DNA of 32,737 nt, taken from positions 1 to 32,737 of the forward strand of contig NZ_JADEWV010000058.1 in assembly GCF_015207455.1 (NCBI RefSeq). Direction: 5' to 3'. The DNA comes from Microcoleus sp. LEGE 07076. GTDB taxonomy: Bacteria > Cyanobacteriota > Cyanobacteriia > Cyanobacteriales > Microcoleaceae. Below the pieces are notes generated by a model, which was not told the origin of the DNA, made no database searches, and saw nothing but the letters and a program-made list of their open reading frames with translations. Positions 10,414-31,706 of this stretch are shown here, one piece after another (position 1 is the first letter of the stretch; each line of letters begins with the position of its first letter). Made by a program: the position numbers and the translations under genes.

Positions 10414-10467
10414 AGTTATTAGTTATTAGTTATTAGTTATTAGTTATTAGTTATTAGTTATTAGTTA
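10414..10467. repeat. Heptamer array AGTTATT x7
   Basis: Seven exact tandem copies of AGTTATT (10414-10462) plus a partial unit, beginning right after the cyclase stop codon. Confidence 0.9.
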
Positions 10468-24698: not shown

Positions 24699-24729
24699 AT
24701 AATACTGGAAAAAACAACTCTCCATTCAC

Positions 24730-24764
24730 TGTTAACTGTTGACTGTTAACTGTTAACTGTTAAC
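24730..24764. repeat. Heptamer array TGTTAAC/TGTTGAC x5
   Basis: Five tandem heptamers: TGTTAAC, TGTTGAC, TGTTAAC, TGTTAAC, TGTTAAC. Confidence 0.9.
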
Positions 24765-24915: not shown

Positions 24916-25008
24916 TGTTGACTGTTAACTGCCAACTGCCAACTGCCAACTGCCAACTGCCAACTGCCAACTGCCAACTGCCAACTGCCAACTGCCAACT
25001 GCCAACTG
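24916..25008. repeat. Heptamer array TGTTGAC-TGTTAAC-(TGCCAAC)x11
   Basis: In one register: TGTTGAC (24916), TGTTAAC (24923), then about eleven exact TGCCAAC units ending at 25008, only four bases from the kinase stop codon (25012-25014). TGCCAAC is TGTTAAC with TT changed to CC, suggesting a variant unit that expanded. Confidence 0.92.
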
Positions 25009-27621: not shown

Positions 27622-27760
27622 TGATGTCCCTTAAAGCTAATTTTGGGTGATTGCAATAGACCCCTTTTGGCGGCTGTCTATTGAGTTATCTGGAGCCTAT
27701 CACATCTGTTGCGAATTGGCCAAACAGGGAATTGGAAATTGGGAATGGGGAATGGGGAAT

Positions 27761-27795
27761 TGTTGGCTGTTGACTGTTGACTGTTGAGTGTTGAC
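27761..27795. repeat. Heptamer array TGTTGAC-type x5
   Basis: TGTTGGC, TGTTGAC, TGTTGAC, TGTTGAG, TGTTGAC in tandem, preceded by GGGAATGGGGAATGGGGAAT, another low-complexity repeat. Same heptamer family as the arrays near 2794 and 24730-25008. Confidence 0.88.
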
Positions 27796-27848
27796 TAATA
27801 ACAACTAACAATTAACAATTGCCAACTAACAACTGACTAATCACTAAA

Positions 27849-28427: not shown

Positions 28428-31400
28428 TTATTTAGTCTCCATCCAATTTTGCCCCGCGTGGATGTCAACTATTAGCGGTACGCTAAGCGGCAGAGCATTT
28501 TCCATCGCCGTTCTAATTTTCGGCTGCAATTCTTCCCATTCATCGGGAGGTACTTCAAAGATTAATTCATCGTGCACTTGCAGCAGCAGCCGCGCCTGAT
28601 AGTTTTGCAAAATTTTGTCTACCTCAATCATGGCAAGTTTAATGATATCAGCACTGGAGCCTTGAATGGGAGCGTTGGCTGCGGCGCGCAAAGATTGCGC
28701 GTCATCTCTGCTGAGAGATTTAAGTCTATCGGAGTGAATGTCTTGGGGATTGCGGCCTTTTAAGTCCAGGATGCTTTGACTCTGGAATTTTAAATAGCGG
28801 CGGCGGCCGAGTATTGTGGTAACGTATCCGAGGGCGATCGCCTCTTTTTTTACTTTCTCCAAAAATTCAAAAACCTTACTGTAACGCTCGTTAAATCGTT
28901 CAATGAATTTTTTACCGTCTGCTGAAGTTTTGCCCATCGAACGACCAAACTTAATCGCCCCCATACCATAGATTACCCCAAAATTAATCGTTTTGCCAAA
29001 CCGTCTTTCGTCCGGCGTTACTTCCTCTTTTTCAAACAACAGTTGAGCCGTCACGGTATGCACATCTCGGTTATTTTGGTAAGCTTCAATTAACACAGGT
29101 TCTTGGCTCAAATGAGCCAAAATTCGCAGCTCAATTTGAGAATAGTCAGCCGACACCATCAGCCAACCTGCTTCCGGTAAAAAAGCCTTGCGAATTTGTC
29201 GCGAAAACTCGGTGCGGATGGGAATATTTTGTAAATTTGGATTGGAAGAAGAAAGCCTGCCCGTACCAGTTGCAGCTTGGTTGAAATCTGTATGTACTCG
29301 CCCGGTATCGACACGCACTAACTGCGGCAAAGCATCGACATAAGTTGATTTCAACTTAGATAATGTTCGGTGTTCTAATAAATCGTCTACAATCGGGTGG
29401 TCTCCTTGCAATTTATCCAAAACAGCCGCGTCTGTAGAGTATCCTGTTTTGGTTTTGCGAGACTTTTTCTGAAACTCATCGGGTATTTTTTCTAACAAGA
29501 TTTCGCTGAGTTGTTTTGGGGAACCTAAATTAAACTTTCTCCCCGCTGCGGCATAAGTTTTTTCTTCTATTTCTGCTAAGCTTTTTTCTAGCTGCTGCGA
29601 AAGTGTGTTGAGATAAGCTGCATCAATGCGAATTCCGCAGTATTCCATTTCTGCTAAAATTGGTTCTAGGGGCTGTTCAACTTCCAGCAGCAACTTGTGC
29701 AAAGACTTATCTGGAAAGTTAGCTTCATCAGCTTTATCTAATTCGGTTCTCAGTTTACCTACTAACCCAAATGTGGTGTGAACATCCATGCCGCAGTAGT
29801 CAGCTACTTTGACAATGCTGATGTCAGCAATTGTTTTGTTTTTGGGTACTAATTCATTGTAACTTGTTGCGACAATACCTAAGTATTTCCTTGACAATTC
29901 GCTGAGACTGTGGCTGGTTTCTGGATTGAGTACGTAACTGGCTAGCATGGTGTCGAAGATGACTCCGGCTAGTTTGATTCCCTGACAGCGCAGGATCGAT
30001 CGATCGAATTTAGCATTTTGCAGCGCCTTGGGATAATTCTCGCTTGACAAAATCGGACGCAAAGCATTTAAAACTGTAGCTTTGTCCAAGTTTTTACCAG
30101 TTTTGTGTCCCGTGGGAATGTAAGCGACATCCTCTTCACCGGTTCCCCAACAGCAGCCAATTCCGACTAATTCGGCATCTCGCGGTTCGAGGGCGGTGGT
30201 TTCGGTATCCCACGCCACGGGTGAGGTTTTGTCGGTGAAAGTTTCCAGCAGTTGAACTAATTCGTTTAACTGTTCGGTTGTTTGAATTATTCGGGGTTTA
30301 ATGGGTAATTTGTTTGCTTGCTGGGCGGCTTTGGTGTCATCATGACTCCAAAACCACAATTCATCTGCTTCTGAACTTTCACCTGTTTGAGGTGACTTAT
30401 CTATTGTGGGGTGGGCATCTTGCCCGCCCAAAGCAACAGGCATCTTGCCTGTTCCACTGTCGGCAACAGGCATCTTGCCTGTTCCACTCTCCAGTGAATT
30501 GATTGTGGGGTGGGCATCTTGCCCGCCCAAAACAACAGGCATCTTGCCTGTTCCACTCTCCAGTGAATTGATTGTGGGGTGGGCATCTTGCCCGCCCAAA
30601 ACAACAGGCATCTTGCCTGTTCCACTCTCCAGTGAATTGATTGTGGGGTGGGCATCTTGCCCGCCCAAAACAACAGGCATCTTGCCTGTTCCACTCTCCA
30701 GTGAATTGATTGTGGGGTGGGCATCTTGCCCGCCCTTTTCTAATGGTTCTTCTACACCGCCAAACCGTTTTTGAATTTGTTTTACTTTGCTTAAAAATGT
30801 CTTGAATTCCAGTTTTTCCAGCATCGAAATCAAGGCTGATTCATCAAAACCTGTAAGTTCGCAATCCTCTAAGTTGATTTCTAAGGGAACTTCTTGGACA
30901 ATTGTCGCCAAGCGCTGAGAATGATAAGCAGCTTCTTTGCCTTCTTCTAGCTTTTTTTTGGTTGCGCCTTTAATCTCGTCTATCGCAGCATAAATGCCGT
31001 CGAGGGTGTTGTAAGCTTCTAGCAATTGCAGGGCGGTTTTATCGCCGATGCCTTTAACTCCGGGAATGTTATCGGATTTGTCGCCGCAGAGGGCTTTGTA
31101 ATCTATTACTTGTGCGGGCAAAATACCGAGTTTGGCTTTGACTTCTTCCGGGCCGTATTCTTGGGATTTGCCTTTTCCCGATCGCCTGAGTTCCTCGGTA
31201 CTCAAATATAACACGCTGATGTTTTTTTCGGTTTCTACTAATTGAAACAAATCTCGATCGCCCGTCAGGATTTTGACCTGATAACCGGCGGCGCTGGCTT
31301 TGTTGGCTAAAGTTCCCAAAACATCGTCTGCCTCGAAACCCGGAGCGGTGACTGCTGGTAAATTGAGATAGGTGAGCAGTTCTTGCAGGTTTTTGAGATC

Positions 31401-31706
31401 GGGGATAAAATCTTCGGGTGTTTCCGCACGACCGGCCTTGTAAGTTTGGTCTGCTTCGTGGCGAAAAGTGGGCGTGGCGAGGTCAAAGGCGATCGCCATG
31501 TACTGGGGATCGTGGGCGGCCATGACTTCCAGCAGCGACTTGAGAAAGCCAAAACAGACGCTGGTGGGAATGCCTGTGGTAGTTCGCAAACCTCCGTCTC
31601 GACTTTTGGCGAAGGCGAAGTAGGAGCGAAAGGCCAGGGAGTGGCCGTCAACTAGGATGAAGGTGGGAACTTGATTTGCCGACACTGACACAAATAGCGA
31701 TCGCAC
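28428..31706 (-). CDS. polA: DNA polymerase I with a repeat-encoded linker
   Basis: A 1092-residue enzyme for gap filling and primer removal. The 5' nuclease domain (about 12-300) shows ILVDGHSLAFRSYFAF, GFEADDVLG, LTGDRD and GDKSDNIPGVKGIG. The 3'-5' exonuclease domain has WDTETT (DxE), NAKFDRS and YCGMDVHTT, so proofreading residues look intact. The polymerase domain has SADYSQIELRILAHLS, RRFGKTINFGVIYG and LLQVHDELIFEVP. Residues about 324-435, between the first two domains, are five GGQDAHPTI and five GTGKMPV units encoded by palindromic repeats, making the protein over 100 residues longer than usual. No ATG precedes the conserved start; GTG 31706 is used, with GTG 31685 (VSANQVPTF) an equally plausible choice. 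Confidence 0.97.
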   Translation of the reverse strand: MRSLFVSVSANQVPTFILVDGHSLAFRSYFAFAKSRDGGLRTTTGIPTSVCFGFLKSLLEVMAAHDPQYMAIAFDLATPTFRHEADQTYKAGRAETPEDFIPDLKNLQELLTYLNLPAVTAPGFEADDVLGTLANKASAAGYQVKILTGDRDLFQLVETEKNISVLYLSTEELRRSGKGKSQEYGPEEVKAKLGILPAQVIDYKALCGDKSDNIPGVKGIGDKTALQLLEAYNTLDGIYAAIDEIKGATKKKLEEGKEAAYHSQRLATIVQEVPLEINLEDCELTGFDESALISMLEKLEFKTFLSKVKQIQKRFGGVEEPLEKGGQDAHPTINSLESGTGKMPVVLGGQDAHPTINSLESGTGKMPVVLGGQDAHPTINSLESGTGKMPVVLGGQDAHPTINSLESGTGKMPVADSGTGKMPVALGGQDAHPTIDKSPQTGESSEADELWFWSHDDTKAAQQANKLPIKPRIIQTTEQLNELVQLLETFTDKTSPVAWDTETTALEPRDAELVGIGCCWGTGEEDVAYIPTGHKTGKNLDKATVLNALRPILSSENYPKALQNAKFDRSILRCQGIKLAGVIFDTMLASYVLNPETSHSLSELSRKYLGIVATSYNELVPKNKTIADISIVKVADYCGMDVHTTFGLVGKLRTELDKADEANFPDKSLHKLLLEVEQPLEPILAEMEYCGIRIDAAYLNTLSQQLEKSLAEIEEKTYAAAGRKFNLGSPKQLSEILLEKIPDEFQKKSRKTKTGYSTDAAVLDKLQGDHPIVDDLLEHRTLSKLKSTYVDALPQLVRVDTGRVHTDFNQAATGTGRLSSSNPNLQNIPIRTEFSRQIRKAFLPEAGWLMVSADYSQIELRILAHLSQEPVLIEAYQNNRDVHTVTAQLLFEKEEVTPDERRFGKTINFGVIYGMGAIKFGRSMGKTSADGKKFIERFNERYSKVFEFLEKVKKEAIALGYVTTILGRRRYLKFQSQSILDLKGRNPQDIHSDRLKSLSRDDAQSLRAAANAPIQGSSADIIKLAMIEVDKILQNYQARLLLQVHDELIFEVPPDEWEELQPKIRTAMENALPLSVPLIVDIHAGQNWMETK
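30403..30736. repeat. In-frame palindromic repeat array inside polA
   Basis: 69-bp units start at 30502, 30571, 30640 and 30709, with an earlier start at 30403 that has an extra 30-bp half-unit. Each unit has two palindromic cores, GGGCGGGCAAGATGCCCACC-type and AACAGGCAAGATGCCTGTT, both built around GCAAGATGC. The period of 23 codons keeps the polA frame; the other strand is open too. Confidence 0.93.

Follow-up and report, generated by a model that had tools for sequence, protein, structure and literature searches.

REP sequences consist of a GT(A/G)G head followed by a palindrome with a non-complementary middle (PMC2817692; PMC3733652). An extragenic location is usual for them, though not required, and Table 1 of PMC3733652 includes intragenic units. 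In the portions of that survey used here, Di Nocera and others (2013) describe REPs lying wholly inside genes, many of them replication and repair genes, including those for DNA polymerase I and tRNA synthetases; intragenic clusters encode 43-82 amino acids in Thauera and R. conorii, and flexible linkers are named as sites that tolerate REPs. The intragenic CGTC repeats of R. conorii are given there as RPE-4 and RPE-6, and CGTC repeats as being without association with a transposase gene. The same portions name only GTAG-12, GTAG-15 and GTAG-16 as cyanobacterial REPs, in Anabaena, Nostoc and Cyanothece. That REPs occur inside genes, DNA polymerase I included, is already known (PMC3733652).

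We analysed a window of 32,737 nucleotides from the draft genome of Microcoleus sp. LEGE 07076 (G000, 495 contigs), in which polA carries an array of such elements. Set against the GTAG super-family REPs and BIMEs that go with a REP-associated tyrosine transposase, RAYT (REPtrons), insofar as the consulted sections describe them, the Microcoleus element is alike in its head, its imperfect hairpin, its 129 copies, its head-to-head pairs and the RAYT found in relatives. Unlike them, it has mostly a GTGG head with an ATCTT loop, lives in Microcoleus, has no RAYT found in G000, and lies in long frames in more than half of its clusters among the matches listed. With the intragenic REPs of Di Nocera and others it shares a place inside open reading frames, DNA polymerase I among them; the 110-codon array, the tandem expansion of a two-hairpin unit, the loop inversion and the sharing of a site by several families are differences from what those sections report. 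Like the Rickettsia palindromic elements, it places palindromes in frame in genes of functional proteins (PMC3733652); RPE-4 and RPE-6 however are CGTC-tagged and without transposase, and RPE-1 is longer, whereas the Microcoleus element is GTGG-tagged and has a RAYT in relatives. Judged against the open-licence literature, four things are apparently new: the REP family found in Microcoleus together with its RAYT, an array grown to 110 codons, the inverted loop, and sites that are occupied in turn by more than one palindromic family. There, the letters of the core, GGCATCTTGCC, led to no bacterial-repeat paper by title, and we found no mention of the six encoded peptides and no cyanobacterial follow-up on REPs in replication and repair genes.

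The REP array in polA

The polA gene occupies 28428-31706 on the minus strand and reads as a single uninterrupted frame for a DNA polymerase I of 1092 residues. Pfam and PDB sequence matches make the domain assignment clear; by Pfam, residues 16-289 form the 5' nuclease, 472-657 the 3'-5' exonuclease and 697-1090 the polymerase. Between the first two, at about residues 325-436, lies the REP array (30406-30735, minus strand), 330 bp or 110 codons long, with ten REPs, five of form B and five of form A. In an AlphaFold model made with a 21-row alignment (mean pLDDT 75.7), pLDDT is below 50 at residues 321-453 and helix and strand are absent from 315 to 454; the linker with its array is predicted to be disordered. 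A sequence-only reading had counted five GGQDAHPTI and five GTGKMPV units in PolA, placed between the 5' nuclease and the 3'-5' exonuclease; conceptual translation bears out both counts, and Pfam the placement.

The peptides GGQDAHPT and GTGKMPV come from the two hairpin subtypes, B and A respectively, each read in a different frame. These are the two main forms of the element in G000: a GTGG head is followed in form B by the arms GGTGGGC and GCCCGCC, in form A by the arms AACAGGC and GCCTGTT, both enclosing the loop ATCTT. As single-stranded DNA the B and A hairpins fold at -9.4 and -7.9 kcal/mol, with z of -4.2 to -5.2. With its GTGG head and its hairpin with a short unpaired middle, the array element is a REP sequence. 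The B copies lie on the plus strand at 30406-30429 (GTGG head, ATCTT loop; the minus strand reads GGQDAHPT), 30505-30528, 30574-30597, 30643-30666 and 30712-30735. The A copies lie on the minus strand at 30435-30457 (GTGG head; peptide GTGKMPV), 30465-30487, 30534-30556, 30603-30625 and 30672-30694, each with the inverted loop AAGAT. All ten were placed by core position.

In the repeating unit B and A are joined with their GTGG heads facing each other, as in REP dimers or BIMEs, and the array is made up of B-A pairs plus one additional A and a terminal B. The window has 12 copies of the core, where shuffled sequence would give 0.03; ten of the 12 are in the polA array (30414-30730), at spacings of 25, 30, 44, 25, 44, 25, 44, 25 and 44. 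Tandem Repeats Finder reports 3.9 copies of a 69-bp B-A unit at 100% match over 30464-30735. The 23-codon period proposed earlier holds for these 69-bp units, that is, for most of the array; the core spacings show that the array as a whole is not uniform. The PolA linker repeat contains GTGKMPVVLGGQDAHPT. Inspection by eye shows that, with a GTGG head, both A and B can be read through in all six frames without meeting a stop codon.

A second in-frame REP array, at 354-472 on the minus strand, comprises two 60-bp units with the peptide NRQDACST in the frame of a heavy-metal P-type ATPase (2-2059); its cores, at 371-381 and 431-441, fall in a stretch that matches the ATPase hydrolase domain in Pfam. 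Tandem Repeats Finder also reports heptamer repeats in the window (AGTTATT, ACTGTTA, AACTGCC, GGGAATT and TGTTGAC) at 10414-10467, 24728-24764, 24927-25008 and 27727-27796.

How widely is the element spread? A genome-wide search for the core, which the sequence-only reading had suggested, shows that it is dispersed, with 129 copies in G000 against two of a reversed control. Copies per genome range from 10 to 710 across 29 genus members, and several other genera have 30-108, so the cores are not confined to the genus. We examined 52 clusters in G000, fifty at other loci and two in the window, which hold 100 cores (100 of the 129 places are listed); a GT(A/G)G head is in place in 48 of the 52 clusters among the matches listed, and the four headless clusters (L128, L132, L139 and L171) may be chance or decayed copies. 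In 53 deduplicated contexts every position of the GT.G head is conserved in 44-46. In the same contexts the first four arm positions co-vary, their letters changing while pairing is kept: Watson-Crick pairs make up 66-91% against 43-55% under independence, and are in excess at each position. Among the 100 of 129 places listed there are at least 14 inverted pairs of minus and plus cores 41-47 bp apart.

The loop of the A hairpins in polA departs from that of the family. After a GT(A/G)G head the deduplicated loops read ATCTT 74 times and AAGAT twice at the 50 other G000 loci (among the matches listed), and 81 times against none at the loci of relatives. The G000 polA has AAGAT in all five A hairpins, whose heads are unaltered. 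Where relatives share its flanks, they have ATCTT and the peptide GTGILPV in place of the AAGAT and GTGKMPV of G000. The simplest explanation of these sequences is that AAGAT arose by inversion of the A-hairpin loop.

PolA linkers and RAYTs among relatives

Matches to polA were found in all 59 genomes searched; the sequence was taken from 49, and the full linker was read in one frame for 46, polA being interrupted by a contig end or a break in the frame in the other three (G024, G010 and G026). In the 20 genomes from outside the genus the linker is 42-82 residues long (median 49); in the 26 genus members it is 70-156 (median 91). The sequence-only reading had allowed that the linker might be ancestral. 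The linker itself is, and the repeats are not: none of the 20 PolA linkers from outside the genus has a REP peptide. Exact REP cores are present in the polA linkers of 12 of the 26 fully read genus members and of the partly read G024, and the linkers of relatives have from zero to seven REP peptides, or unrelated dispersed repeats. Seven of the 29 genus members have GGATTTAACGGATGT or close variants instead, read as DLTDV peptides; this repeat is itself dispersed, with 33 copies in G010, 31 in G024 and none in G000, the three genomes searched for it. In G027 a CCCCCC...GGGGGG palindrome is present on top of REPs.

Do the linkers follow the descent of the gene? On a tree built from the conserved PolA regions of the 26 genus members and three others, with 8 of 26 inner branches unresolved, linker type requires 17 changes, hardly below the mean of 18.4 for shuffled labels, which give as low a value in 22 of 200 shuffles. 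The sisters G022 and G005 are 95.7% identical in the distant C part of the protein, and their linkers are unrelated. The linkers of G005 and G028 are 99.6% identical, as against 87-96% for the remaining gene parts compared, which points to exchange of linkers between species. The alignments indicate that PolA linkers turn over within the genus, and that at least one, that of G005 and G028, has evidently passed between species. Among the linkers compared no clean pair of empty and filled polA with insertion boundaries was obtained. In the metagenome-assembled genome G026 (L044 1400-1900, G026:C85) the polA frame breaks within a GGATTTAACGGATGT array into an N-part of 358 residues and a C-part of 731, which is either a natural split PolA or an assembly error; the arrays are not always harmless, or this assembly is wrong. 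In G010, polA is divided between two contigs at its own repeat array.

For a transposase we searched the 59 genomes with the NCBIfam REP_Tyr_transpos model (NF047646), which has matches at E <=0.001 in 53 and over the model cut-off in 41, and inspected the neighbourhoods of 32 loci, some scoring below the cut-off. In six Microcoleus/Tychonema relatives (G008, G012, G019, G021, G022 and G026) a RAYT lies among A- and B-type REPs. At all six loci there are exact cores on both sides, and on the 3' side these form an array; on the 5' side the nearest exact core is about 0.05 to 1.4 kb off, with variant copies between, which counts against the origin that we favour. The REPs at these loci include an A form with CACAGGC arms and many B copies with the loop TTCTA. 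With the G012 protein the six RAYTs share 83-100% identity, a level reached in only 6 of the 29 genus members, and G023 has a RAYT fragment. Genomes with the RAYT have a median of 288.5 cores (n=6), those without it 90 (n=23; Mann-Whitney p = 0.0012, kinship ignored). G006, with 573 cores and no cognate RAYT, also counts against our preferred explanation.

No cognate RAYT was found in the 495 contigs of the G000 draft. The REPs of G000 may on this account be orphans at present, or the RAYT may lie in an assembly gap. The two G000 matches above the NF047646 cut-off (C61 and C138) have no cores within 1.5 kb, C61 having two about 3 kb off. As G000 has no RAYT found, and G006 has 573 cores without one, mobilisation in trans is something we infer. 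Since REPs of this type surround a RAYT in related genomes, the closest relative of the polA element is the GT(A/G)G-headed REP family, and the Rickettsia-type analogue proposed in the sequence-only reading gives way to it.

As an internal control, the repeats on either side of the RAYT-type genes at L175, L176, L179, L186, L198, L199 and L200 are GTAG repeats of other kinds, among them GTAGGGTGCGCAATGCGCACC, GTAGTGAGGACTTTAGTCC and GTAGGTTGGG. The RAYT frame of G008 (L195 1552-2191) has GGQDAHP repeats ahead of the RAYT domain. General IS200-type transposases were also considered: across 29 genus members PF01797 counts do not track the cores (Spearman -0.22, p 0.26), and none of the best 12 matching loci has a core. 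HIP1, which differs in sequence from the REP, was dropped as a reading. The small dispersed repeats of Nostoc treated by Elhai and others in 2008 are said to be very small mobile repeats of cyanobacteria, a trait shared with the present element.

REPs in other genes

Thirty-two of the 52 listed G000 clusters lie in stop-to-stop frames of at least 277 residues (seven of them near the frame start, possibly upstream of the real start codon, and three, L128, L139 and L171, headless). As random positions at the same loci do so in 4632 of 8342 cases (55.5%), there is among the matches listed no sign that the REPs of G000 avoid genes. In long frames, like REPs have neighbour spacings that are multiples of three in 14 of 14 cases in G000 (among the matches listed) and 46 of 46 in relatives, and elsewhere in 3 of 9 (among the matches listed) and 13 of 44, in a test that is partly circular, as an array that breaks a gene would count as elsewhere, and in which many of the relatives' loci are orthologous.

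Pfam was run on 20 of 30 fetched REP-bearing frames and on the window's ATPase and PolA. In a DUF3326 protein (L164), an FAD oxidoreductase (L166), an NlpC/P60 protein (L170) and Lnt (L174), a conserved domain is interrupted or lengthened where the REPs lie; elsewhere, RtcB (L160) for example, the REPs are outside the domain, and the L137 frame is without a Pfam match. Compared with a solved structure, urease alpha has 29 residues in place of two precisely at three REPs, and alanyl-tRNA synthetase has a similar gap.

A search of 28 genomes gave urease alpha in 27, with a readable loop in 26 (L253-L279): 13 have one to four REP peptides, 11 have PPLTPPYQGG, and two have neither. PPLTPPYQGG is encoded by a CCCCCC...GGGGGG palindrome that, as CCCCCCTTAYCAAGGGGGG, is dispersed in 2-65 copies per genome, the reversed control being absent from 28 of 28. 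For alanyl-tRNA synthetase, 25 of the 28 genomes searched gave a match and 24 could be read (L281-L308); nine have REP or REP-like peptides, with four units in G006, six in G026 and decayed ones in G018, G027 and G011, and 15 have a short form without them. The DUF3326 protein has REPs at 12 and none at 15 of 27 readable loci. Compared in this way across genomes, the three proteins share the pattern of polA. The array in polA noted at the outset is part of a wider phenomenon, which extends beyond polA and involves several repeat families.

Origin and meaning of the array

What steps would account for the array? It is very probable, we think, that REPs were inserted in the linker through a RAYT acting in trans, were multiplied in tandem and in frame, had the loop inverted, and are nearly neutral. 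The RAYT would have copied REPs into the linker as head-to-head B-A pairs, in an ancestor, since the 69-bp unit is common to relatives. In the present lineage the B-A pair would then have been multiplied by tandem duplication, through slippage or unequal crossing over, and copies that changed the frame would have been lost, the period being a multiple of three. The five-nucleotide loop of the A hairpin may have inverted either ahead of the expansion or in its course, so that GTGILPV became GTGKMPV. Recombination in the flanking sequence could carry linker alleles from one species to another. We think it most likely that the inserts are close to neutral, because GTGG-headed A and B elements have no stop in six frames and the linker tolerates changes in length. 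In its main point, that a palindrome which the protein tolerates has expanded in frame within a flexible linker, the sequence-only reading is upheld by the linker comparison and the AlphaFold model; copy number, which it thought might vary between strains, differs between related species.

Might the linker be selected instead, its length or charge tuning PolA through the distance between 5' nuclease and polymerase, with the repeats as mere raw material? The longer linkers of the genus (median 91 residues against 49 outside) would fit, as would the reuse of the PolA and urease sites by unrelated repeat families, and PMC3733652, in the section concerned, offers the speculation that activity is altered where replication and repair genes contain REPs. 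Yet sequence and length vary widely, between sister species too, the same elements enter unrelated enzymes, and the clusters listed show neither clear avoidance of nor preference for long frames; we regard such selection as unlikely. Ten consecutive hairpins whose single units fold well could alternatively serve at the level of DNA or RNA, by binding gyrase or as hairpins of the polA mRNA, as has been proposed for REPs and BIMEs. The same site in other species holds unrelated repeats or none, with no conserved dose, and we think such a function very improbable.

Palindromic inserts in frame in essential genes are also what RPEs provide (PMC3733652), and the array might be ascribed to them or to another class of element without a RAYT. 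The GT(A/G)G head, the head-to-head pairs and the REP-flanked RAYT are however features of REPs, and an RPE would need a CGTC tag and no transposase, where the polA element has a GTGG tag and a RAYT association in relatives; of all the readings this seems to us the hardest to credit. There is finally the short-read draft: 495 contigs, units 100% identical, and a G010 polA that is broken at its own repeat array. Misassembly, already raised in the sequence-only reading, is very improbable as an explanation of the array and could bear only on exact copy number. The element itself is not an artefact, as in-frame REPs are present in the polA of G012, an assembly of six contigs, and of eleven further genus members; the exact number of units in G000 is what would be left to such an error.

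The preferred origin, REPs inserted by a RAYT and expanded in frame, would make these loci a natural system for the study of mobile hairpins that become protein. A single site can be seen in empty and filled states, occupied by different families and in changing copy number; many species of the genus have been sequenced, and relatives have a transposase that can be recognised. Are the inserts neutral passengers, or do they alter the enzymes? This becomes testable; PMC3733652, where it treats replication and repair genes that carry REPs, put the question in 2013. We tentatively entertain a broader proposal, to which we would give somewhat less than an even chance: Microcoleus may keep a set of orthologous acceptor sites (the PolA linker, the urease alpha loop, alanyl-tRNA synthetase and others) in enzymes that are essential or central. 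Mobile palindromic families would enter these sites in frame, gain and lose copies there, invert their loops and reach other species through recombination; in PolA and urease one family would take the place of another. If so, mobile hairpins would be a continuous source of fast-changing protein linkers, and an enzyme would occasionally be split into two polypeptides, as PolA may be in G026.
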